A stretch of DNA of 64,000 nt from Acidiluteibacter ferrifornacis (GTDB lineage Bacteria; Bacteroidota; Bacteroidia; Flavobacteriales_E; Vicingaceae), in the NCBI RefSeq assembly GCF_009909615.1, contig NZ_WWNE01000005.1, positions 62,334 through 126,333 of the forward strand. Reading direction: 5' to 3'. Under the pieces are notes generated by a model. It saw only the letters and a program-made list of their open reading frames with translations, ran no database searches and was not told the origin of the DNA. Made by a program: the position numbers and the translations under genes. This document shows, in pieces, positions 35,155 to 48,744 of this stretch. Position 1 is the stretch's first letter, and every line of letters starts with the position of its first letter.

Positions 35155-35284
35155 CTACTTATTGTAGTAAAAATTAAACTTATCGTGCCAATATTACAAC
35201 TTATCGAAAAGGATAGTAAAAGTTGGTGCAATAGCTATTAATTTGCTCACTATTGACTATTTGACCACAACTAACTATATGTTT

Positions 35285-38200
35285 ATGAAAATCAATTTAT
35301 TGGCTAGCTTTCGATTTAGCATTCTTTTTCATTTATTAGTGATTTTATTTACTTTAAATGTTAATGCTGAAGGAACCAAGTCTGTTTGGAAAAACTTCAC
35401 AGGACTAGGTACTGGAAATGAGAGTGGTGGATTGTTAGTAAATTTTATCACCGATCCCGTAAACGGAGCCTATCCAGCTTATACGTTTAATTCCACCTCA
35501 GACGAAAGATTGTATATTCATATCAATGATTTTACAACTGAATCCATCAAGTTTGGATTTAATGTTCGTCGTTTATGGTTTTCTGATTGTAACAATGTGC
35601 CTACTGTCAATGGCGACTATACGAACTCAAATACTGGCGGAAGAAGGGTACATTGGAGATTAAAAGACCCAGATGGTAATGTGGTAGCAACATCGGGAGC
35701 TTCAGGTATTCCATATTGGAATGGAGGAACTACAACAAGTACAACAGCAGGTTTTATTGGTTCCTATAATGAGGCAGTTAATGGTCCTGATGGATATAAC
35801 GGTGTTGGAACGAGTGGATATACTCCTTTGACACATAACCCTACAAAGAATGGGGATTATTACTTTGAATTTAACTACAATAGTAATACCACTATGTTTA
35901 ACAATAGTGGTTGTACTTGGGCTACAATTGCTTTCAATTATTTTGATATTTCAGTTGCAAAAGGCACGGCTACAATAAATGGTAGATTGTGGTCTCGTCA
36001 ATGGTCGTTAGCCACAGTAAATAGAGCACCCAATGCAGGTACACTTTCAGAAAATTCCTCAAAATTCCATGTTTATACTTCAGATAGTATTATTACGAAG
36101 ATTGAATTAGATAAAGTGGTGCCTGGCTATTTCAACGTCATTGCTAATGAGAATGGGGTAGGAACTACAGGAAACTTTGCTAATGATTCCAAATCGACAA
36201 CAAGTCCAGCAACGAAGTTGAATCGAAAGAATAGAATTTTCTTAAATACACCTGATACTACAATTTATCCAGCAAGGGCACTTACAAAATCTGTATCTCC
36301 AGCTTTTATCCAACGTTGTAGTCGTGATGATCAATGTATTGTAGTAGAGTTAAATAGGGCTAGTAGTGCGAATTTATATTTGGAGATAAACGGCGTTCCT
36401 GGATACCAGTCAAGTTCTTCAGATCGACTAATCTCGGCTACAACCTTATTTAAAGGTGCCAATTGTATTGCCTGGGATGGACGAGATGGAAATGGGAATT
36501 ATGTGCCCGATGGAGATACGATATACATTCAGGTACTTTTTGAGTCCAATGTTACTCAGGTTCCATTGCAAGATATAGAGTCCAATCCGAACGGGTTGAA
36601 AATATCTTTAGAGTTGCCTATCAGCGGTTCAACTGCTGTTTATTGGGATGATTCCAACGTTGGAGGAACAACGAATTTAACTGGTTGTGTTGGCTCTTCA
36701 AGTGTAGGATGTCACTCATGGACTGGAGATTTTAGCAGTGGAATAGGAAACGGAAACGTAATTAACTCCTATTGGTATTCGACACTCGATACCTTAATAG
36801 CGATTCCAATTAAAGATTCCACTTTTGCGATTAATATTGTAAATTCAAGTTCAGATGTTTCTTGTGTACCTACATCAAATGTTGATCCAGGGCCGATTTC
36901 ACTAGTTAATTTTGCAGGTGATCGTACTAAAAGTTTTAGATGGTCATCGACAGGTACCGGTACGTTTACTCCCCATGATTCTACTTTATATGCAGATTAT
37001 ATACCCTCTGCTCAAGATATAGAGTTTGGTGGAATTATTACTTTTTACATTAGTCCAAGAACCGGTTGTCCTGAAGCAACGGATTCTATTAAAATAGATT
37101 TCGGAAATAGGCCTGGGGGAGTGACAACTGGGTTATTAAGGTGGTATAAAGCCAATGATGGTCCAAGAAACGCTAGTGCCACAGCTGCATCCAATGGTCA
37201 AGTAGTGAAGACTTGGAGAAATAAAGCTTCTTTAGGTAATGATGCTACTTCTGTTTCAGTTGGCCCAATCTTTACCACGAATGTGTTTAATAATAACCCC
37301 GGACTGGTATTTTCTGACAATGATAATCAACGAATGACTTTCCCCGTCAATTTTGGTTCTTTACAAGCAGGAAATGGGACCTATGATGGAGCGAATTCTA
37401 CAGGTATAAATAATGGTACAAACGCTAATGGAGCACCTGATTCACAATTTGCTCAAATTTATGACGAAACAGATCGACTAGTTATTGATTTGGGTACAAC
37501 CTTATCGGCAGGGTCTACTTATACCATAGTTTGGAGAAGAAAGAATGCTTATACGAACACAGCGGTTGCTGATATGGTTGTAGAGGAATCGGCTTCTTCA
37601 GGATCTGGATATTCTACCAACCCATTGGTTCCACAAACTTCAGATCGTGTAAACTATACTTCAACTAATTTAGTAACTCAAGTTCCTACAAGATATTTAA
37701 GAATTAGGCCGCAAACTGGCTCTAATGATGATATAGATTTTGATGCAGTTACGTTTTCAATCGATACTCGAAAAAATGAAACGGTCTTCTTAGTCGCTAA
37801 GAAAACGAATAATACCGCCAATACTTATTTGAGTGAAGGGTCAACCAATAACTTCAGAACATTTTATGGGGAAACAGCTAATAATCCAAGATTCAGATTT
37901 CAAGGAACAGGAACCACAGTTAGCGCATCTCCTTTAGTTTCCAATAATGAGGCATTCGTTTCTGCTTATCAAGTGAACTGGGCCGGAAATGAACAAGTAC
38001 TTTATAATGGAACTGTTGCCTACAATACCGACTTTGGAGCAATTAATCCGGCTACTTCTTTTATTCTAGGAAATAACTCAAATAATTCTGGAGAGTTAGC
38101 AGGAGCACTAGGTGAGGTTATTGTATACAACCAGGCACTTACAGCTCTTGAAATTCAAAAAATTGAGAGTTACCTTGCCGTCAAATATGGTATAACATTA

Positions 38201-41200
38201 AATAGAAATTATATAGATAGTGATGGAAATGTAATCTTTACAGCAGATGGTTCTGGTGCTGAGGTCTATGATAATGACATTGCAGGGATAGGGTTCGAAG
38301 AATGTGCTATCGAATTGAATCAGCAAAAAAGTATGAGCCAAAGCACTGATGCTGTGGTTCAAATGTCTAATTCTAGCAGTTTAAATGAGCAAGATTATTT
38401 AATTTGGGGAAATGACAATGGTTCTTTAGTATCCAAGAATACAGCAGATGTTAACCCTATTTATTTTACAGAACGTGTAACTAGGGTATGGAAGGCTCAA
38501 TCTACCGGGAATACAGGTACCGTTAAGGTTGCATTTTATTTAGGGAATATAACAGCTTCTCCTACAGATATTAAAAAGTATGGTTTGATCATGGGAAATA
38601 CACCAACCATGGCAAATGGAACATTGTCTGCCTATAACAAGTATATTTCAAATGATACCCTTTATTTTGAAGGGGTTACTTTTTCAGGAACGAAGTACTT
38701 TACAATCGCAACTGATATCGTAGATAAGGATAATGATGGTATTGCGGATGAGAATGATTTAGATTCAGATAACGACGGAATTTTAAATGCGGATGAATTA
38801 AGTGGCTGTACCGGTGCTTTAACTTATGAGTTTTACTCCACGCAGGTGGCAGGTTCTACAGTGAATAACATACCGACCTCCGGTGCTGCAAGTATTGGTA
38901 CTATAGGTAACTTAAATGTGAATGCATTGGCTACTTCCATCAAAGGGACTGCAGATCAATACAGTATTCGATATAAAGGGTTTATTACTATTGCAACTTC
39001 AGGTGATTACACATTCTACACTTCATCCGATGATGGTTCCAAGTTGTTTATTGGTGGAGCTACAGTAGTTGATAACGATGGAGCTCACGCTGATACAGAA
39101 AGATCAGGAAACATTTACCTCAATAAGGGGACATATCCATTGACACTTCTTTTCTTTGAAGATTTTGGAGGAGATGTTTTAACGCTAAGTTATGCAGGGC
39201 CTTCTATTTCAAAGCGAGCAGTTCCGTTTAGTATTTTAAGTTCTGTTTGTGATACAGATGGTGATGGAGTGCCGAATTACCTGGATTTAGATTCTGACAA
39301 CGATGGAGTTTTAGATATTTATGAATCAGGAATACCTGTAGCAACTATCAATACCCTTGATGCAAATCATGACGGAATAATAGATCCATCATTTAATTTC
39401 GGCTCGAATGGATTTGTAAATAATCTAGAAACGGTTGCTGACAATGGTATTAAAACCTATACAATTGCGGATAGAGACGGTGATGGCATTAGAGACCAAT
39501 TTGATTTAGATTCAGATAATGATGGTATTACAGATTTAGCAGAAAATGGGAATGGTACAGATGCCAATAATGATGGTATAGTAGATGGAAGTTCAGATGC
39601 AGATGGTGACGGAATTTTAAGCTCTGCTGATTCTAATAGTGGAGTTGCAGGCTCACCCAATACTACTCCAAGAGATACTGATGGAGATGGTGTTTTCAAT
39701 TATTTGGATTTAGATTCAGATAATGATGGTGTAACGGATTTAGCAGAAAACGGAAAAGGAACGGACACTAATAATGATGGAATAGTAGACGGAACAACTG
39801 ATGCGGACAAAGACGGTATCATCGACTCCGCAGATAACAATACCTCGGTGAGAGGATCATTAAATAGCATTCCGCGAGATACAGATGGTGATGGAAAACC
39901 AAACTATTTGGACTTAGATTCAGATAATGATGGAATTATGGATTTAGCTGAAAATGGAAATGGAACCGATACTAATAATGATGGAATAGTTGATGGAACT
40001 ACTGATGCAGATGGGGATGGTATTATTGATTCAGCAGATAGTAATACCTCAGTTTTAGGTTCTCCAAACAGACCTGCCAGAGATACAGATGGAGATGGGA
40101 AGCCCAACTTTATAGATTTAGATTCGGACAATGATGGGATTACCGATTTAGCTGAAAATCCATCGGGCACAGGGATTGACTCTGATAATAATGGAGTGCT
40201 AGACGGTTCTGCCGATGCTGATGGAGATGGAATATTAGATTCGGCAGATAGCAATGATGCTTTAAGAGGTTCGCCAAACACTATTCCTACTAATAGCGAT
40301 GCAGATGCTGTACCTAACTTCTTAGATTTAGATTCTGACAACGATGGTATTTTTGATGTTCAAGAAAATGGAAAAGGGACTGATTCTGATAACAATGGAG
40401 TGGTAGATGGAAGTTCAGATACAGACGGTGACGGAATTTTAAACAGTGCAGATAATAATAATTCAGTTTTTGGTTCACCAAACTCAGCACCAAGAAATTC
40501 TGATGCAGATGGTGTTCCTAATTATTTGGATCTTGATTCAGATAACGACGGAATAACTGATTTTGCTGAAAATCCTAATTCAACTGGAACTGATTCTAAT
40601 AACGATGGAATCATTGATGGATCATCTGACGCTGATGGTGATGGAATTTTAGATTCTGCTGATTCTAATGATGGTTTATTCGGTTCGCCAAACTCTCCAG
40701 TATCTAACGTAGATGGGGATGCTTTGCCAAACTTCATAGACTTAGATTCAGATAACGATGGAATAACCGACTTAAAGGAAAATCCTGCTGGAACAGGAAC
40801 TGACGCCAATAATGATGGTATAGTAGATGGAACGGCAGATACTGATGGTGATGGAATCTTAAATTCAGCGGATAGCAATGATGGGGTTAAAGGTTCACCG
40901 AATACAGTACCTACTAATACCGATGGAAATGGATATGCTAACTTCCTAGATTTAGATTCTGATAATGATGGAATAACTGATTTAGCTGAAAATAGAGGAA
41001 CAGGAACAGATGCTAACAATGATGGTGTTGTTGATGGTACAACTGATGCTGATGGCGATGGAATAATTGATTCTGCAGACAGTAATACCGGAGTGAAAGG
41101 TTCGCCAAATAATACACCTAGAGATTCTGATGGGGATGGAAAACCTAACTACATCGATTTAGATTCAGATAATGATGGTATTACTGATTTAGCTGAAAGT

Positions 41201-44200
41201 GGAAGAGGGACCGATTCAAATACCGATGGTGTGGTTGATGGTGCTACTGATATTGATAAAGATGGAATAATTGATAGTGCAGATTTGAATACTGCTGTTT
41301 TTGGTTCGCCTAACAGTATTCCGACGAATTCAGATGCAGATACACTTCCAAATTTCTTGGATTTAGATTCAGATAATGATGGGATTACTGATTTAAAGGA
41401 AAATCCAACAGGAACCGGAACAGATTCCAATAACGATGGTATTGTGGATGGTTCTGCTGATACCGATGGAGATGGTATACTAAATAGCGCAGATAAAAAT
41501 AACAGTGCAATAGGGTCTCCTGGTTCTGCTCCTACGAATACCGATGGAGATGGAAAAGCCAATTTTATTGATTTAGATTCTGATAACGATGGAATCACTG
41601 ATTTGAAAGAAAATCTTGGTGGCACAGGAACAGATTCTAACAATGACGGAGTAGTTGATGGAACTGCTGATGCAGATGCTGACGGTATTTTAGATAGTGC
41701 GGACAGTAATGATGGAGTTGCAGGCTCGCCGAATGCCATTCCAACGGATACCGATGGCGATGGAACTCCAAACTACATCGACTTGGATTCTGATAATGAT
41801 GGGATTACGGATTTAGCTGAGAATAGAGGTACAGGAACAGATTCTAATAATGATGGAGTCGTAGATGGTTCTTCAGATACGGATGGTGATGGAATTTTAA
41901 ATTCAGCAGATAGCAATAACGGTGCAATCGGATCACCAAATAATGCTCCAAGAGATACAGATGGAGATGGAAAAGCCAATTTTATTGATTTAGATTCTGA
42001 TAATGATGGAATTACTGATTTGAAGGAAAATCCTACAGGCTCAGGAACAGATTCCAATAATGATGGAATTGTTGATGGTTCTGCGGATGCTGATAAGGAC
42101 GGTATTTTGGATTCTGCCGATAGTAACGATGCTACTTTTGGCTCACCAAACTCAGCTCCAACTAATTCAGATTTAGATGCAGTTCCAAACTTTATTGATT
42201 TAGATTCTGATAATGATGGAATTACTGATTTGTTTGAAAATCAAGTGAACAGAGCGAATGACGCCGACAGTAACGGAGTAATAGATGGCGCTGCGGATGC
42301 AGATGGAGACGGTATTCTTGATGCACCAGATAGCAATGATGGCTTGAGAGGTTCACCTAATACCGTTCCTTTAGATACAGATGAAGATGGGAAACCAAAC
42401 TTTATGGATATTGATTCTGATAATGATGGAATCACAGACTTGAAAGAGAATCCAATAGGAACAGGAGTAGATGCTAACAATAACGGAGTAGTTGATGGTA
42501 CGGCCGATGCGGATGGTGATGGAGTATTAGATTCAGCAGATAGTAATGATGCCACTTTCGGAACTCCGAATACTACACCTCAAGATTTTGATAGTGATGG
42601 ATTAGCAAACTTCATTGATATTGATGCTGACAATGATGGTATTATTGATAATATCGAAGCACAAGCCTCAACAGGAAGTCCAATTAGAGCATTAGGAACA
42701 GATACTGATGGCGATGGATTAGATAATGCATTTGAAAGCACCAATGGTTTAGTACCTGTAAATACAGATGGTACCGATAATCCTGATTATTTAGATTTAG
42801 ACGCTGACAATGATTTAATTTCAGACCTAATAGAAGGATGGGATACTGATGGAGATTTAACAGCAAATACTTCACCTTCAGGTGTAGATTCGGATAATGA
42901 TGGATTGGATAACAATTTTGATCGAGTGAATGGTCGAAACAACACCACCAACCCATCAAACCTTTCTCAGAATTCAAACTTCTTCCCGAATGTTACAACT
43001 TCGGGAACTGCTGAAAGAGATTGGAGGGAAGAAAAAGACTCAGATGGTGATGGTATCGCAGATGGAGTAGATATTGATAAAGATAACGATGGAATATTAG
43101 ACATTAATGAATGTGGTTCAACTAATTCTTATTCTATCGTTGGAGGAAATGGAGGAAGCACTACCAGCTTTAATCAAGCTGGTGTAACTCTGGCATATTT
43201 TGAGTTAGTATCGGTTGATAATTCTATGTCGATCACCATTAATGGTTCTGGATTAAATCCTAAAAACTTATTACAGTTTGATGCAGCAACATTTAGTGCT
43301 GCCACTGAAGTATTGATGGTTTTTGCATCTGATAATGCTTCAATGACAACTGCTTGGGTAAGTAATAGTAATGGTTTGCCTCGAATCCGAATTTTTATTG
43401 ATGCGAACGGAAAAGTTTCTGTTTTTGGTACAAGAACAACGACTTCAAATGCACTTGAATTAATGAAGCCTGCAGATGGTTCAGTATTTAATCAAGTTAA
43501 TTTCGTAGGAGGTTTTAATACATTCACGATCGTAAATATTGACGGTTCTGGTCCGGATAATATTAACGGTACGGCATACCTTATTAGTGGCTGTGACAAT
43601 GATGGAGATGGAATACCAAATTATTTAGATTTGGATTCAGACAACGACGGTATTTCGGATATTATAGAAGCAGGTGGTGTTGACAACAACAATGATGGAG
43701 TCGTAGACAATGCGACTGATACAGACGGAAATGGCTGGGCCAATACGTTTGATCCAAATAATGGAGGTACACCTTTAGCTGATTTGGATTTAGATGGTGA
43801 CGGAATTAAGAATCGCTTAGATTTAGATGCCGATAACGATGGTATTGCAGATGTAGTAGAAGCGGGAGGAGAAGACGCCAATAATGATGGAAAAATTGAT
43901 GATTCAAACGATACCAACGAAAATGGATGGTTAGATGCTGTGGATCCAACCATTGGAGGAACAGCATTGCCATTAACTAATTCAGATAGTGATGAATATC
44001 CTGACTATATCGATAGAGATAGTGATAATGATGGTTTATCCGACACCTTTGAAGCGGGAGGCCCTGACGCTACTAATGATGGAGTTGTTGATGGATTTAC
44101 TGATGCAAATTCAAATGGTTGGGATGATGCCGAGGAGACGGTAAGGTTTGATATGCCAAATAAGGATGGAGATTCTCAACCGAACTATTTGGATAGGGAC

Positions 44201-45676
44201 AGTGATGGAGACGGGATTCCTGATGCAATTGAAGCAGGTGGAATTGATAACAATGGTGATGGAGAGTTAGATGCACAATCAGATTCGGATAGAGATGGAT
44301 TGTTTAATATCAATGATGGAATAGTGCCTACCATGCCTAATAAAGATCGTGACGCTTATCCTGATTATTTAGATTTAGATTCAGATAATGATGGAATAGC
44401 CGACGTTGTAGAGGCCGGTGGTGAAGATTCGAATAACGATGGAAAGCAAGACGGAGTTGATGCAGATTTTGACGGTTTGAGTGATTTTGTGGATACTGAA
44501 AATGGAGGTAGTCGATTACCTTTAACAGATTCAGATGGAGATGGATTACCAAACTATTTGGATATTGACTCAGACAACGATGGATTAATCGATAACGTTG
44601 AAGGACAATCAACAGCAGGTTTTAGAGCACCAACTGGGTCGGATACGGATGGTGATGGTTGGGATAATCGTTATGATTCCAACAATGGAGGAACCGCGAT
44701 TACTTTAAATAACCAAGAAAATTCAGGTGCTCCTGATTATTTGGATTTCGATACAGATGGTGATGGACAGCCCGACTGGATTGAAGGATTCGATGATGAT
44801 GAAGAAGGAGATGCTTTGAAAGATTTAAAAATCAGATCAACTGCATTTGTCAGTGCAGGAGGAAATGCAAACTATTATAATAATAGTTTAGATGGTGATG
44901 GAGATCAAATACCGAACTGGTTAGAGGATTCTGACTTAGATGGTCAGCCTAATTTCTTAGATCCGGACAGCCCTTTTTATCATGATTCAGATAACGATGG
45001 TTTGATAGATTTATATGACACCGATAATTTTGGTGCAGCTTCTATCTATCCGAATATGGATGCAGATTCAGAACCAGATTGGCGAGATACGGATAATGCA
45101 ACCACTTTACCCATTACTCTGATTAGTTTTGAAGCAGAAAAGAAGCTCAACAGTGTTTTATTGACGTGGGTAACTTTAGCTGAAATCAACAATGATTTCT
45201 TTACAATAGAGAAAACCAAGGATGGAGTAAATTTTGAATTGGTTGGAAATGTAAAAGGAGCTGGTAACTCCATCGAAAAATTGAGTTATGAATTGATCGA
45301 TGCAAGTCCTTATGATGGAGTTTCTTATTATCGATTAAAGCAAACAGATTTTAATGGGGAATATACATACTCTGAATTAAGAGCAGTAGAGTTTGGAGGT
45401 GCTGACTTGGTGAGCAACTCTAAATTATACCCGAACCCAACCAATGGTGATGAGTTGTACTTTAATTTAGTTTCGGACAAGAGTGGAAAGTTAAATTTAG
45501 AGATTAGAACCATTGAAGGTGAGTTAGTAAAATCTCGTTTGGTTCTTTTGGATGGATTAGATACTATTTATGAGTTTGAATTATTAAAGGGAACTCAACT
45601 AGCCGTAGGAACGTATATGTTAACTTATCGATTAGACGACAAAGTAATCGGAACCAAACGATTCATAGTAAAATAG
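35285..45676 (+). CDS. Giant T9SS-secreted thrombospondin type-3 repeat protein
   Basis: About 3463 residues from the ATG that begins a good signal peptide (MKINLLASFRFSILFHLLVI). ATG 35279 and TTG 35243 are alternatives. Order: unique N-terminal region; LamG/discoidin-like region (about 610-980, ends ALTALEIQKIESYLAVKYGI); first DxDxDG repeats; PA14-like domain (about 1175-1320, TSSDDGSKLFIGG); an array of about 15 units of 68-70 residues (to about 2440); an unrelated beta domain (about 2605-2770); looser DxDxDG repeats with EAGG linkers; an FnIII-like region; and a type A sorting domain (LYPNPTNGDELYF...TKRFIVK). The Asp-rich repeats should bind calcium and form a long stiff stalk. Probable surface adhesin or structural protein. 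Confidence 0.93.
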   Translation: MKINLLASFRFSILFHLLVILFTLNVNAEGTKSVWKNFTGLGTGNESGGLLVNFITDPVNGAYPAYTFNSTSDERLYIHINDFTTESIKFGFNVRRLWFSDCNNVPTVNGDYTNSNTGGRRVHWRLKDPDGNVVATSGASGIPYWNGGTTTSTTAGFIGSYNEAVNGPDGYNGVGTSGYTPLTHNPTKNGDYYFEFNYNSNTTMFNNSGCTWATIAFNYFDISVAKGTATINGRLWSRQWSLATVNRAPNAGTLSENSSKFHVYTSDSIITKIELDKVVPGYFNVIANENGVGTTGNFANDSKSTTSPATKLNRKNRIFLNTPDTTIYPARALTKSVSPAFIQRCSRDDQCIVVELNRASSANLYLEINGVPGYQSSSSDRLISATTLFKGANCIAWDGRDGNGNYVPDGDTIYIQVLFESNVTQVPLQDIESNPNGLKISLELPISGSTAVYWDDSNVGGTTNLTGCVGSSSVGCHSWTGDFSSGIGNGNVINSYWYSTLDTLIAIPIKDSTFAINIVNSSSDVSCVPTSNVDPGPISLVNFAGDRTKSFRWSSTGTGTFTPHDSTLYADYIPSAQDIEFGGIITFYISPRTGCPEATDSIKIDFGNRPGGVTTGLLRWYKANDGPRNASATAASNGQVVKTWRNKASLGNDATSVSVGPIFTTNVFNNNPGLVFSDNDNQRMTFPVNFGSLQAGNGTYDGANSTGINNGTNANGAPDSQFAQIYDETDRLVIDLGTTLSAGSTYTIVWRRKNAYTNTAVADMVVEESASSGSGYSTNPLVPQTSDRVNYTSTNLVTQVPTRYLRIRPQTGSNDDIDFDAVTFSIDTRKNETVFLVAKKTNNTANTYLSEGSTNNFRTFYGETANNPRFRFQGTGTTVSASPLVSNNEAFVSAYQVNWAGNEQVLYNGTVAYNTDFGAINPATSFILGNNSNNSGELAGALGEVIVYNQALTALEIQKIESYLAVKYGITLNRNYIDSDGNVIFTADGSGAEVYDNDIAGIGFEECAIELNQQKSMSQSTDAVVQMSNSSSLNEQDYLIWGNDNGSLVSKNTADVNPIYFTERVTRVWKAQSTGNTGTVKVAFYLGNITASPTDIKKYGLIMGNTPTMANGTLSAYNKYISNDTLYFEGVTFSGTKYFTIATDIVDKDNDGIADENDLDSDNDGILNADELSGCTGALTYEFYSTQVAGSTVNNIPTSGAASIGTIGNLNVNALATSIKGTADQYSIRYKGFITIATSGDYTFYTSSDDGSKLFIGGATVVDNDGAHADTERSGNIYLNKGTYPLTLLFFEDFGGDVLTLSYAGPSISKRAVPFSILSSVCDTDGDGVPNYLDLDSDNDGVLDIYESGIPVATINTLDANHDGIIDPSFNFGSNGFVNNLETVADNGIKTYTIADRDGDGIRDQFDLDSDNDGITDLAENGNGTDANNDGIVDGSSDADGDGILSSADSNSGVAGSPNTTPRDTDGDGVFNYLDLDSDNDGVTDLAENGKGTDTNNDGIVDGTTDADKDGIIDSADNNTSVRGSLNSIPRDTDGDGKPNYLDLDSDNDGIMDLAENGNGTDTNNDGIVDGTTDADGDGIIDSADSNTSVLGSPNRPARDTDGDGKPNFIDLDSDNDGITDLAENPSGTGIDSDNNGVLDGSADADGDGILDSADSNDALRGSPNTIPTNSDADAVPNFLDLDSDNDGIFDVQENGKGTDSDNNGVVDGSSDTDGDGILNSADNNNSVFGSPNSAPRNSDADGVPNYLDLDSDNDGITDFAENPNSTGTDSNNDGIIDGSSDADGDGILDSADSNDGLFGSPNSPVSNVDGDALPNFIDLDSDNDGITDLKENPAGTGTDANNDGIVDGTADTDGDGILNSADSNDGVKGSPNTVPTNTDGNGYANFLDLDSDNDGITDLAENRGTGTDANNDGVVDGTTDADGDGIIDSADSNTGVKGSPNNTPRDSDGDGKPNYIDLDSDNDGITDLAESGRGTDSNTDGVVDGATDIDKDGIIDSADLNTAVFGSPNSIPTNSDADTLPNFLDLDSDNDGITDLKENPTGTGTDSNNDGIVDGSADTDGDGILNSADKNNSAIGSPGSAPTNTDGDGKANFIDLDSDNDGITDLKENLGGTGTDSNNDGVVDGTADADADGILDSADSNDGVAGSPNAIPTDTDGDGTPNYIDLDSDNDGITDLAENRGTGTDSNNDGVVDGSSDTDGDGILNSADSNNGAIGSPNNAPRDTDGDGKANFIDLDSDNDGITDLKENPTGSGTDSNNDGIVDGSADADKDGILDSADSNDATFGSPNSAPTNSDLDAVPNFIDLDSDNDGITDLFENQVNRANDADSNGVIDGAADADGDGILDAPDSNDGLRGSPNTVPLDTDEDGKPNFMDIDSDNDGITDLKENPIGTGVDANNNGVVDGTADADGDGVLDSADSNDATFGTPNTTPQDFDSDGLANFIDIDADNDGIIDNIEAQASTGSPIRALGTDTDGDGLDNAFESTNGLVPVNTDGTDNPDYLDLDADNDLISDLIEGWDTDGDLTANTSPSGVDSDNDGLDNNFDRVNGRNNTTNPSNLSQNSNFFPNVTTSGTAERDWREEKDSDGDGIADGVDIDKDNDGILDINECGSTNSYSIVGGNGGSTTSFNQAGVTLAYFELVSVDNSMSITINGSGLNPKNLLQFDAATFSAATEVLMVFASDNASMTTAWVSNSNGLPRIRIFIDANGKVSVFGTRTTTSNALELMKPADGSVFNQVNFVGGFNTFTIVNIDGSGPDNINGTAYLISGCDNDGDGIPNYLDLDSDNDGISDIIEAGGVDNNNDGVVDNATDTDGNGWANTFDPNNGGTPLADLDLDGDGIKNRLDLDADNDGIADVVEAGGEDANNDGKIDDSNDTNENGWLDAVDPTIGGTALPLTNSDSDEYPDYIDRDSDNDGLSDTFEAGGPDATNDGVVDGFTDANSNGWDDAEETVRFDMPNKDGDSQPNYLDRDSDGDGIPDAIEAGGIDNNGDGELDAQSDSDRDGLFNINDGIVPTMPNKDRDAYPDYLDLDSDNDGIADVVEAGGEDSNNDGKQDGVDADFDGLSDFVDTENGGSRLPLTDSDGDGLPNYLDIDSDNDGLIDNVEGQSTAGFRAPTGSDTDGDGWDNRYDSNNGGTAITLNNQENSGAPDYLDFDTDGDGQPDWIEGFDDDEEGDALKDLKIRSTAFVSAGGNANYYNNSLDGDGDQIPNWLEDSDLDGQPNFLDPDSPFYHDSDNDGLIDLYDTDNFGAASIYPNMDADSEPDWRDTDNATTLPITLISFEAEKKLNSVLLTWVTLAEINNDFFTIEKTKDGVNFELVGNVKGAGNSIEKLSYELIDASPYDGVSYYRLKQTDFNGEYTYSELRAVEFGGADLVSNSKLYPNPTNGDELYFNLVSDKSGKLNLEIRTIEGELVKSRLVLLDGLDTIYEFELLKGTQLAVGTYMLTYRLDDKVIGTKRFIVK
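39240..42600 (+). repeat. Tandem array of about 207-bp coding repeats
   Basis: About fifteen in-frame units, counted at the recurrent DLDSDNDGI codons near 39504, 39706, 39906, 40116, 40326, 40530, 40738, 40950, 41157, 41363, 41573, 41779, 41986, 42197 and 42407. The mean spacing is about 207 bp (69 codons). Each unit reads roughly DTDGDGKPNYLDLDSDNDGI, a variable AENG/KENP linker, NNDGIVDG, DADGDGILDSADSN and GSPN. Most units agree strongly at DNA level with many synonymous changes. Confidence 0.9.
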
Positions 45677-45935: not shown

Positions 45936-46101
45936 AAAAATTATTGCATGAAGCAAATGTATGACAGAATAGTAGCAAAAGGAAAGAGTAAAAAAGTTAG
46001 CATTGATTGCTATATGTAATAAGTTATTAAAACAAGCATTTGCAATAGCAAAGTCAGGTATACCATTTGATCAATCATATAGAAGTAAATTAGGAATATA
46101 G
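45936..46101 (+). pseudogene. IS110-family transposase, C-terminal remnant
   Basis: Two frames together give the C-terminal end of an IS110-type (Transposase_20) transposase. MKQMYDRIVAKGKSKK lies in one frame (ATG 45948). LALIAICNKLLKQAFAIAKS and GIPFDQSYRSKLGI lie in the next, ending at TAG 46099-46101. The switch falls in a run of A, so a one-base indel broke the frame. The catalytic N-terminal DEDD domain is absent. The remnant ends a few bases before the distal attC-like hairpin. Confidence 0.75.
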
Positions 46102-46104
46102 CTC

Positions 46105-46192
46105 TTGAGCAGTTATTCTGATATTTTTTGCCCTTAAAGCATAAAAAATATTGGAAATAACTGGGTTTTTAGCACAGTTCTTTGTTGGCGTG
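46105..46192 (-). repeat. attC-like site of cassette 1, truncated
   Basis: Read on the minus strand after the cassette-1 stop: CACGCCAAC (46184-46192) is the left core, followed by a hairpin pairing CAGTTATT and ATATTTTTT blocks between 46110-46130 and 46140-46163. The outer partner core is missing because the sequence runs into the IS110 remnant. Confidence 0.5.
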
Positions 46193-46215
46193 TCGTTTTT
46201 TATTTTTTCTGTCCA

Positions 46216-46578
46216 TTAAAATTGAACTTTTTTGTTATATCTAATTGCGTCAATAATTTCACTTTCCAATTTTTCAGTCTGTCCTATCCAAATGGTTTTT
46301 TTATGTGTCGTATAATCCCATGTAAAGACATGAACAATAGAGTTAGTCAGTATATCCTTTTTGTTTAATATTCCACCATTAAATTCGTTCAGGTTGTCAT
46401 TGACGTCCATTTTGTATTGTTTATCAGGATCAGTCTGAAAGTAGATTTTGTGAGCATAGTCGTAATTCTCTCCAATCAGTTCGTCAATTTTCTCGACTGG
46501 TTTATGCCAAAAGTCGAAATACCATGAGGTAGTTAGACCGACAACAATAATTGGCAATATGACTGCGAGTTTTTTCAT
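46216..46578 (-). CDS. Cassette 1 gene b: small exported or anchored protein
   Basis: A 120-residue product beginning MKKLAVILPIIVVGLTTSWY, a signal anchor or signal peptide; the ATG at 46578 is preferred over an in-frame extension that would overlap the neighbouring gene. The rest is hydrophilic and mixed, ending IIDAIRYNKKVQF, with aromatic segments (VFTWDYTTHKKTIWIG). No named family is recognised, though similar short proteins are typical of mobile cassettes in this phylum. It is the second gene of a two-gene cassette. Confidence 0.7.
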   Translation of the reverse strand: MKKLAVILPIIVVGLTTSWYFDFWHKPVEKIDELIGENYDYAHKIYFQTDPDKQYKMDVNDNLNEFNGGILNKKDILTNSIVHVFTWDYTTHKKTIWIGQTEKLESEIIDAIRYNKKVQF

Positions 46579-46589
46579 TGTCTGATTAG

Positions 46590-46898
46590 TTAACAATAAA
46601 ATAGATTTCCATTCCAAGGTTGTTCAACTCCTCTCCAAATAGTCAAACTTAGAGTGAAGTATATTATCGAAAGAGAAACAATAATTCCGTTAAAAATTAT
46701 CAAGCCTTTTATCCAATTAGATTTCCGCTTTGCTATGAAGTAAGTCGCTATTACAATCAAATTTACTAATGTCAACATCAGTATCATTCCCAAGTCTCCA
46801 AGTCCATGCCCGAATGACAAGCAGCTATTAAATACTCCTATTGTCACCAAGAGTAAATACAAAAGTGAGACAATTAATATGGTCAGGTTTAATTTCAT
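46590..46898 (-). CDS. Cassette 1 gene a: small membrane protein
   Basis: The 102-residue product has three hydrophobic helices (about 4-25, 34-54 and 65-90) and short loops, one with SCLSFGHGLGDLG. No family is recognised. Its ATG lies 9 bp inside the cassette, counted from the core GTTGGCGTG. Starting next to the core is typical of cassette genes, whose promoter is outside. It runs into gene b with an 11-bp gap. Confidence 0.65.
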   Translation of the reverse strand: MKLNLTILIVSLLYLLLVTIGVFNSCLSFGHGLGDLGMILMLTLVNLIVIATYFIAKRKSNWIKGLIIFNGIIVSLSIIYFTLSLTIWRGVEQPWNGNLFYC

Positions 46899-46907
46899 TT
46901 TTTAATG

Positions 46908-47107
46908 CACGCCAACGTTTACTGTATGGTGCGTTGTGGTTTTGATAAAGATACAATTTCAGTTTAGCACTTAGCAAAAACCGCTTTGCGGTTTTGTAAA
47001 TTGTTTGCCAAAACAAAATCCGCAAGCGGATTTTGTGAGATTTCAAATATCTATTCAACTTTCCAAACTGCTTTAACCACAATGTGCTATACAGATTGTT
47101 AGCAAAC
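46908..47107 (-). repeat. attC-like site between cassettes 2 and 1
   Basis: The ends are CACGCCAAC (46908-46916) and GTTAGCAAAC (47098-47107). Inside them, after an unpaired step of 3-5 nt, about 20 bp pair: CTGTATGGTGCGTTGTGGTT with AACCACAATGTGCTATACAG. The 16 exact pairs and 4 differences all allow G-U pairing. The centre holds two more perfect hairpins, AAAACCGC-TTT-GCGGTTTT and AAAATCCGC-AA-GCGGATTTT. Core, unpaired step, long arm and variable top is the plan of an attC site. Confidence 0.6.
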
Positions 47108-47112
47108 CGTTT

Positions 47113-47754
47113 TTATTTAGTTGTAACGGCTACTCGCTCTCCAAAATAATATATTTTACCTTTTTTAAAGGTTCCATCACGCCGATAAAATTCAGTCTTT
47201 CCATGTCTTTTGGAATTTGCATTCCTCACTATTCTTTTAATATTTCCATTTTTGAAGAAATATGATATAGTCCCATTTATCGCTGGAACTTGTCCGTAGC
47301 CATTCCATGGTTTATAAAAATATTTCAACTTTTCATTATCAATGAGATGAAAATTGGTGTCTTTCGCCTTGTCCCATTTATAAACTGCGAAGAGTTTATT
47401 GGTCAAAAAGTGGAAGGTTGAATCAACCTCTTTTATTAGCGTGTCATCTTCAATTATTTGTATGAAAGCCTTTCTGCCTTTTAAACTGTAAATAATCGTG
47501 CTGTCCTCAAATTCGTTATTTCTAACATTACGATATTCAACTAGTCGTCCATTCTTTTTGAATGCTCTAATTGGTGCATCAATTATACTGTCTTTAATTG
47601 TGTAACCGTAAATTAAACTTGATCCATTAAATTTTGCAGTGTGATTCCCGTTTTCATACTTGGCAAGCTCCAAAAATGCGTTTATCAAACTGTTTTGAGA
47701 ATAGAGTTGGCTATTAACTGAAATGATTAACAGTAATAAATATTTTAATCTCAT
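47113..47754 (-). CDS. Cassette 2: secreted MORN-like protein
   Basis: The 213-residue product has a signal peptide (MRLKYLLLLIISVNSQLYSQ). The C-terminal half has segments such as SYFFKNGNIKRIVRN and GKTEFYRRDGTFKKGKIYYF, similar to toxin-antitoxin-like or MORN-type (YxxxGxxxG) repeats of exported Bacteroidota proteins. The enzymatic role is unknown. The stop codon is 5 bp from the inverted core GTTTGCTAAC and the ATG is 15 bp from the opening core, so the ORF fills its cassette. Confidence 0.7.
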   Translation of the reverse strand: MRLKYLLLLIISVNSQLYSQNSLINAFLELAKYENGNHTAKFNGSSLIYGYTIKDSIIDAPIRAFKKNGRLVEYRNVRNNEFEDSTIIYSLKGRKAFIQIIEDDTLIKEVDSTFHFLTNKLFAVYKWDKAKDTNFHLIDNEKLKYFYKPWNGYGQVPAINGTISYFFKNGNIKRIVRNANSKRHGKTEFYRRDGTFKKGKIYYFGERVAVTTK

Positions 47755-47769
47755 TAGTGATTGGGTAAT

Positions 47770-47905
47770 GTTTGCTAACGGCCACGGCTAAGAAACGTAG
47801 GGCTTTCGAAGTGATTCACTGTCCACCGAAACAGAAGTTTGCTAAATGGACGAACCCTTCTGAAAGCCTTTACTGCCCTATGTTTTCTTATCCATTGTTA
47901 GCAAC
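47770..47905 (-). repeat. attC-like site between cassettes 3 and 2
   Basis: The ends are GTTTGCTAAC (47770-47779) and GTTAGCAAC (47897-47905). Inside, an unpaired step (CCACGG against CCATT) precedes an arm TAAGAAACGTAGGGC that pairs with GCCCTATGTTTTCTTA apart from one extra A. Further in, GGCTTTCGAAG pairs with CTTCTGAAAGCC (one bulge), and GTCCA pairs with TGGAC. Single extrahelical bases are a hallmark of attC recognition. Confidence 0.6.
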
Positions 47906-47911
47906 TGTGTT

Positions 47912-48454
47912 TTATTTTATTATTTTGATTTCTTGTGTTACGTCCTTGTAAAATTCGTTCAATTCGTTTTTAGTCGAATCCACTAATTCTTTATCTGTTA
48001 TTTCTTTTTTTTCTGAGTCGAATAGTCGATTATTAGGCTCCGAGTAAGTCAAGTACATTGTCACGCTGTCAACTTTAAATCCTTCTTCGTAATATGGTTT
48101 GTCATATTCATAGTTGACTTTTTTCACAAACTTGAATTGGAAGTCATTGTCAGTCCAATAGGTGTAATTCAGTTTTCCTGTTTCTCCGTATAGCCAAAAG
48201 TCCATAACAACATAATTGAATTCATTGTCGTGATACACTATTAATTCTCCGCCATCTGTTGAATGGTCAAGAATTTCTAGCGTGTCCGAATTAAACTTTG
48301 TCTTATTTGATTCAAAGTCCTTAAGAAGGTCAAAGTCCGAGATTTCGGAGCTTGTTTCAATTTCTGGTTCAGGTTGGGTATTTGAGTCCGTTTCCTTATT
48401 CTTTACACAGGAAAAAAGTCCAATCGTCAAAAGAAGAATTAGTATTTGTCTCAT
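47912..48454 (-). CDS. Cassette 3: lipoprotein
   Basis: The 180-residue product has a lipobox-like LFSC near 13-16 (MRQILILLLTIGLFSCVKNK), so it is probably an outer-membrane lipoprotein. An acidic Ser/Glu/Pro-rich linker follows (DSNTQPEPEIETSSEI), then a beta-rich domain with DGGELIVYHDNEFNYVVMDF. No family is recognised. The stop codon is 6 bp from the inverted core and the ATG is 14 bp inside the opening core, as in the other cassettes. Confidence 0.7.
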   Translation of the reverse strand: MRQILILLLTIGLFSCVKNKETDSNTQPEPEIETSSEISDFDLLKDFESNKTKFNSDTLEILDHSTDGGELIVYHDNEFNYVVMDFWLYGETGKLNYTYWTDNDFQFKFVKKVNYEYDKPYYEEGFKVDSVTMYLTYSEPNNRLFDSEKKEITDKELVDSTKNELNEFYKDVTQEIKIIK

Positions 48455-48468
48455 TGTCTTTTTACATA

Positions 48469-48530
48469 GTTGCTAACAAGTGAATATGACGCACTTTGTG
48501 CGTCATATCCATATTTTAAAATGTTAATTA
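48469..48530 (-). repeat. Opening boundary of the cassette array
   Basis: GTTGCTAAC (48469-48477) marks the start of cassette 3. Beside it, ATATGACGCAC-TTT-GTGCGTCATAT (48484-48508) is a perfect 11-bp hairpin after a 6-nt step. The far core is weak (GTTAAT near 48522), so this may be a degenerate attC or the attI-like entry point. Confidence 0.45.
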
Positions 48531-48744
48531 TTTATTTCAATAAAACTACTAATTGCTTTAAAATCAATAACAAAAACGTTTATTAGTCGTTTGTTGTCGT
48601 TTAAAAACGGATCAATGGTAGTTTTCATTTAGCAATAGTTTTTTTTCTTCATTCGAAGATAAGTGAAATAACTTATTTTATACACACTGTTGAAAAATAA
48701 AGTGTTAATGGTGTAGGTTTGAACATTTATAGTTTACGGTTATT
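48531..48744. other. Non-coding gap right of the cassette array
   Basis: This AT-rich stretch has several CGTTT/AAACG words but no stable long hairpin, no promoter I trust and no integrase fragment. Confidence 0.4.

Follow-up and report, generated by a model that had tools for sequence, protein, structure and literature searches.

Anatomy of the locus

The window analysed here was a stretch of 64,000 nucleotides (nt) from Acidiluteibacter ferrifornacis (GCF_009909615.1, NZ_WWNE01000005.1:62,334-126,333), and all coordinates given without a contig name refer to it. At 46101-48530 it carries an array of small minus-strand genes. This is very probably a cassette array of a Bacteroidota integron-like system, in which a recombinase other than IntI would serve dispersed attI platforms in trans. 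An earlier account made from the letters of the window, the sequence-only reading, had described three units at this position, each opening and closing with its own inverted repeat. The three units and their repeats, of 9-10 nt per unit, were found again in the sequence. R' denotes here the first bases of a cassette, and R'' denotes the box behind the gene to which they are complementary. In unit 3, GTTAGCAACT (from 48477) was complementary to GTTGCTAAC at 47905-47897 (arms of 16 nt, 94%). In unit 2, GTTAGCAAAC at 47779-47770 paired with GTTTGCTAAC at 47107-47098, and in unit 1 the pair was GTTGGCGTG at 46916-46908 with CACGCCAAC at 46192-46184. Both complete spacers of the window were long imperfect palindromes. 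The features are given below in the order of the minus strand; ORF stands for open reading frame and IS for insertion sequence.

48654-48662, minus strand: promoter-like box TTATCTTCG at the head of the platform, conserved in 8 long platform copies
48524-48628, minus strand: leader ORF of 34 amino acids (MKTTIDPFLNDNKRLINVFVIDFKAISSFIEINN), stop 15 nt before the attI hairpin
48482-48510, minus strand: hairpin of the attI-like site, GGATATGACGCAC-AAA-GTGCGTCATATTC, 13 copies in the genome, one of them behind the recombinase gene on contig C14
48475-48477, minus strand: core GTT of the attI-like site with putative crossover G^TT; homology breakpoints at GTT in other genomes
48468-48477, minus strand: unit 3 R' box GTTAGCAACT, complementary to the unit 3 R'' at 47896-47905
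47912-48454, minus strand: unit 3 gene, 180 amino acids, possible lipoprotein, no match in Pfam/NCBIfam
47777-47905, minus strand: unit 3 attC-like site of the 123-nt class, R'' GTTGCTAAC at 47897-47905; covariance model 79.1 bits, E 5e-17, in the training set
47770-47779, minus strand: unit 2 R' box GTTAGCAAAC
47113-47754, minus strand: unit 2 gene, 213 amino acids, present in 1 of 395 genomes of the class
46914-47107, minus strand: unit 2 attC-like site of the 187-nt class, R'' GTTTGCTAAC at 47098-47107; covariance model 32.5 bits, E 2.5e-5, outside the training set
46908-46916, minus strand: unit 1 R' box GTTGGCGTG
46590-46898, minus strand: unit 1 first gene, 102 amino acids
46216-46578, minus strand: unit 1 second gene, MKKLAVILPII..., about 120 amino acids; the ATG start was chosen, and the ORF listing begins at a TTG further upstream
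46184-46192, minus strand: unit 1 R'' box CACGCCAAC, with the IS remnant directly after it
45947-46186, plus strand: remnant of an IS110-family element, with its end against the attC R'' box; a copy of 98% identity lies at C14:234665-234904

Every unit opened and closed with its repeat, as had been described. The last unit, unit 1, was found without an attC of its own, and the IS110-family remnant abutted its R'' box.

Pairing of R' with R'' and the core

To examine the pairing rule, a covariance model (R1) was trained on 23 hairpin sites drawn from several genomes, and the variable R boxes entered it with no more than three bases. The training sites were selected by their hairpin ends and R match; the unit 2 site of the window and most of the matches lie outside this set. 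Sites were recognised by a palindrome detector that required the end asymmetry of 3 nt and 5-6 nt, since a generic one yielded many false sites. In 73 of 86 neighbouring pairs of model hits, R' was complementary over at least 9 nt to the R'' of the same cassette. This is far above chance: R' boxes taken from other cassettes as a control gave such a match in 74 of 10,055 comparisons (0.74%), and within single spacers the two ends matched in 4 of 119. The rule was obeyed by all 11 consecutive cassettes of an array in Flavobacterium enshiense. Such complementarity is expected to remain when a circle closes at its own site and is then integrated again within GTT.

The core was compared over 119 sites. 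GTT was present in all of them and was followed by R in 118, by five variable bases and then by M-A-T, which gives GTTR-N5-M-A-T. The sequence-only reading had proposed GTTRGC as the conserved core, and this was corrected, since GTTRGC was found in 36 of the 119 sites as a subset of the wider pattern. Its claim that the core was not canonical held: the integron core RYYYAAC/GTTRRRY was not observed as a rule, and GTTRRRY fitted only 8 of the 119 sites.

Structure of the attC-like sites

On the minus strand, each spacer had the order R''-AAC, 3 nt, stem, variable middle, stem, 5-6 nt and GTT, and the spacers fell into two main length classes of 122-125 and 184-188 nt. The stem showed strong covariation. 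Fifteen of 20 pairs varied on both sides, the score was reached by none of 500 shuffles, and sliding the partners abolished the signal. At one column pair, all 23 sequences had A-C on the gene strand; a second pair departed in 18 of 23. An A·C pair on the top strand corresponds to a T·G wobble on the bottom strand. The arm differences were distributed in the same sense, with A/G against G/A at 57:5 in the first set and 52:3 in new loci. In integrons, the choice of strand is set by extrahelical bases and the unpaired spacer (PMC8946536). The fixed A·C/T·G positions were read as a mark that would select the bottom strand, in the role which those elements have in integrons. An Rfam scan of the array gave no family at gathering level.

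The cassettes were compact. R'/R'' alone served to define 114 of them, and in every one the sense ORF was longer than the antisense ORF. The median start lay 33 nt after R', and the median stop 13 nt before the end of R''. The cargo was mixed and included a HigB-like toxin with a helix-turn-helix partner, Exo_endo_phos, GmrSD-like, Eco57I-type methylase, DndB-like and Gp49-like proteins, and many cassette proteins matched no family. For the unit 2 gene of the window, no homologue was found in the 394 other genomes of the class, so the comparison of strains was carried out on other cassettes. When an empty site was sought at the window, the neighbouring gene was unmatched in genomes G001, G002, G005 and G008, and the match in G003 was uninformative.

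attI-like platforms

The genome of A. ferrifornacis holds at least a dozen integron-like cassette arrays. The window array begins with ATATGGATATGACGCAC-AAA-GTGCGTCATATTCACTT|GTT, from 48475 upwards. This attI-like site was present in 13 copies in the genome, and a control with the reversed pattern gave none. Where arrays were parsed at the attI copies examined, the cassettes started at the attI GTT. One copy lay directly 3' of a gene for a tyrosine recombinase of 382 amino acids (C14:187364-186216), and this copy heads the longest array seen.

Eight of the copies, including that of the window, had about 190 nt upstream in common, with TTATCTTCGG. We take TTATCTTCG to be a Bacteroidota -7-like box, judged from the consensus TAnnTTTG, and it may be the promoter of the platform. 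Leader ORFs of 33-41 codons were found in most of the eight copies (four besides the window), ending 15 nt before the hairpin. Their position between the promoter-like box and attI recalls ORF-11 of attI1 in integrons, and they may function as leaders.

The sequence-only reading had seen no integrase and had likened the array to a cluster of attC sites lacking integron-integrases (CALIN). It was right that no recombinase lies beside the array, and in this the array resembles a CALIN. The attI-like start, the leader ORF and the promoter-like box mean that the array is not a plain CALIN. It also differs in that a cognate-looking, non-IntI recombinase with the same attI is encoded elsewhere in the genome. 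As an attI platform without its own recombinase, the window array is presumably served in trans.

The attI copy at C15:49696 was preceded by the decayed 3' end of a recombinase gene. In Winogradskyella ursingii (L161 11212-11864), an attI copy likewise stood behind a partial or decayed recombinase 3' end. Copies of this kind point to a possible route of platform dispersal. In Algibacter onchidii C6 (L176 5520), a dispersed attI was similar to the one that belongs to another recombinase lineage (Flavobacteriaceae S0862), so several attI types may coexist within a genome.

Footprints of movement

Whole-unit changes with breaks at GTT, which the sequence-only reading had proposed to look for, were seen in three settings. 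In W. ursingii, a block of two cassettes of about 1.24 kb occurred once at attI and once behind attC. The flanks were unrelated; the homology began exactly at GTT, and its other end stopped within the next R'. In F. enshiense, one cassette was present twice in one array (97.5%), with different cassettes after each copy. A segment of 1,714 bp with the recombinase and attI was 100% identical between genomes of two genera of the home family, and the first cassettes differed, with the break right after GTT. The segment lies at L211 8924-10637 and L212 11693-9980 (genomes G012 and G006). A third genome repeated the identity of recombinase and attI at 89%, again with a different first cassette. The identity across genera points to a recent transfer of the platform. 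The GTT breakpoints are best read as footprints of movement rather than as observed events.

Homologous recombination between spacers might account for the present changes if the cassettes were once made by a recombinase that is now a relict or otherwise used. This would suit the identity of up to 86-89% between spacers within one genome and the arrays found in genomes without a close recombinase. We consider it improbable. The breaks fall at GTT, including the attI/attC flank pair that has no sequence in common, and the recombinase genes are intact, with the catalytic R, K, H, R, H and Y kept in 19 of 19 recombinases.

The recombinase

The recombinase encoded on contig C14 matched the XerA-like model NF040815 (210 bits, cut-off 220) and the IntI model TIGR02249 (193 bits, cut-off 265), in both cases below the cut-off. 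NF040815 was the closest named NCBIfam model. The best fold match was IntI4 (2a3v), with an alignment gap where the IntI insert sits. The absence of this insert was seen in the spacing from R to H, which was 89-90 residues in the cassette recombinases measured, versus 131-132 in four IntI proteins. In a quick tree, IntI formed one clade with a support of 99 and all cassette recombinases lay outside it. A fully supported branch parted the recombinase from the Xer-type paralogues of its own genome. With the XerA/XerC-like simple tyrosine recombinases it has the catalytic residues and the closest model in common; it differs from them in its link to attI and arrays, its extra N-terminal domain and its branch apart from those paralogues.

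An ordinary IntI integron or CALIN, whose unusual attC sites would be used by a true IntI encoded elsewhere, is therefore hard to reconcile with these data and is very unlikely. Its appeal lies in the similar overall layout, in the IntI family score and in the fold match. The best candidate recombinase has no IntI insert and falls outside the IntI clade, and among four PF00589 proteins detected in this genome, IntI spacing was absent from all three in which the spacing could be read. The small fraction of cores that fit GTTRRRY also stands against it.

The N-terminal domain comprised residues 1-88 (L010 2101-2364) with a beta-beta-alpha-beta-beta-alpha-beta order. Its best structural matches were XPB damage-recognition domains, with Z 5.7-5.9 over 54-57 residues, and the SMARCAL1 HARP domain (Z 3.9), and Pfam DUF5710 was matched in 6 of 16 members. 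These matches were below the level needed, so no relation to XPB, HARP or DUF5710 is claimed. The XPB and HARP domains act on DNA that is branched or damaged, and the N-terminal domain, which resembles them weakly, could sense the folded attC. A full-length relative of the recombinase, 43.7% identical, is carried by a 395-kb plasmid (CP012862, L182) of Persicobacter sp. JZB09.

Distribution in Bacteroidota

Close orthologues of the recombinase were found within the home family and beyond. They had an attI-like site within about 100-150 nt downstream, and in several assemblies arrays as well. At the 3' side of nearly all orthologues there was a species-specific hairpin or box, then GTT with R-N5-M-A, and then cassettes or the contig end. 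The covariance-model search of Bacteroidota that had been suggested from the window gave many homologues. At E <=0.001 the attC model was positive in 37 of 41 relatives, and at E <=1e-6 in 105 of 198 Bacteroidota genomes (about half, single-contig genomes among them), with at most 17 candidates scored per genome. It was positive in 6 of 6 named Bacteroidota and in none of 8 control genomes of Proteobacteria and Firmicutes. Spacer homologues were thus widespread with other genes between them, rather than the three window units being conserved in one order.

The recombinase search of viral contigs gave one distant locus. No cassette arrays were found beside wider XerA-like relatives (archaea, Candidate Phyla Radiation, Firmicutes and Proteobacteria), in a weak test with a parser tuned on Bacteroidota sites. 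In standard surveys, integrons are all but absent from this phylum. An earlier survey used the IntI additional domain to pick out integrases (PMC2426708). A later one describes Bacteroidetes with a complete integron only as rare cases, such as Salinibacter ruber M1, and calls the absence of integrons from large clades intriguing (PMC9024848). No description of the present system was found in the literature, in a search that had preprints outside its scope and few subscription papers within it.

Probable integron logic without IntI

The system would work like an integron, but neither its recombinase nor its core is that of an IntI integron. With sedentary chromosomal integrons it has several things in common: a tyrosine recombinase adjoining an attI-like site, insertion at GTT, and compact, mostly one-gene cassettes in the same orientation. 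Palindromic attC sites lie at the 3' ends of genes, and each R'' matches the R' of its own cassette by complementarity; the hairpin may be strand-asymmetric, and the cargo is of toxin-antitoxin and restriction type. The integron logic of the sequence-only reading was strongly supported by the R'/R'' match within each unit, the palindromic spacers behind the genes, their many homologues and the exact breaks at GTT. The differences lie in a recombinase that lacks the IntI additional domain, has an N-terminal domain, falls outside the IntI clade and reads towards the array. The core GTTR-N5-M-A-T, the two fixed A·C/T·G positions seen as a strand mark, and the 13 attI copies in one genome, most without a recombinase, also set it apart.

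We propose that each unit would be a mobile cassette of one or two genes with a palindromic attC-like site, whose R'' is complementary to the first bases of the cassette. An attI-like landing site, preceded by a promoter-like box and a leader ORF, would open the array. The recombinase, related to XerA and IntI, most likely serves the dispersed platforms in trans from its gene beside the same attI on another contig. It would fold the attC bottom strand into a hairpin, in which the R box is paired by its own R'/R'' and the two T-G wobbles mark the strand. Strands would then be exchanged at G^TT, the partner being attI or a second attC, and cassettes would be inserted, excised or copied next to the promoter.

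Several points weigh against this proposal. DNA folding energy favoured the bottom strand in only 23 of 31 sites, so folding energy alone was no proof of bottom-strand choice. Six genomes (G003, G004, G005, G014, G023 and G031) had attC hits but only Xer-level recombinase matches, and the link between attC and recombinase was therefore not absolute. That the C14 recombinase would serve the window array in trans is drawn solely from the attI sequence which the two have in common, and recombination itself is known here only by its footprints. Some of the duplications could have arisen by homologous recombination. A dispersed palindromic repeat of repetitive extragenic palindrome (REP) or miniature inverted-repeat transposable element (MITE) type between unrelated, immobile small genes is the least likely explanation of all: it would suit the many hairpin copies and the contig ends that often fall in or near them, and leaves unexplained the own-cassette complementarity of a variable 9-10 nt, the fixed start at attI copies and the whole-unit moves with breaks at GTT.

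If the integron-like system works as proposed, Bacteroidota would be rich in cassette arrays that are likely to escape integron surveys like those cited above. The domain specific to IntI would not be the sole solution for recombining folded single-stranded sites. Many short unassigned Bacteroidota genes would be mobile cassettes, with restriction, DndB-like and toxin-antitoxin genes among them. We lean slightly towards a wider view, in which the system is phylum-wide. A non-IntI recombinase, perhaps with a structure-sensing N-terminal domain, would read attC hairpins mainly by their shape, with a self-paired R box and two fixed wobbles. One recombinase would feed a dozen promoter-leader-attI platforms in trans. 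Cassette capture at folded sites would then be achieved without the domain thought necessary for it.

Insertion sequence at the array end and neighbouring gene

The second copy of the IS110-family end, at C14:234665-234904, also stopped exactly at an R'' box, that of a different cassette, and was the only other copy found. Pfam PF02371 and PF01548 were matched on this copy. Elements of the IS1111 group target integron attC (PMC11187229). The present case was similar in that the IS end lay at a fixed R'' position in two places with different R'' sequences. It differed in that the target was a non-IntI attC-like site and the insertions were just two, both close copies. The array adjoins a giant ORF of 3477 amino acids (35243-45676) with many Asp-rich thrombospondin type 3-like repeats, which were about 70% alike in DNA.

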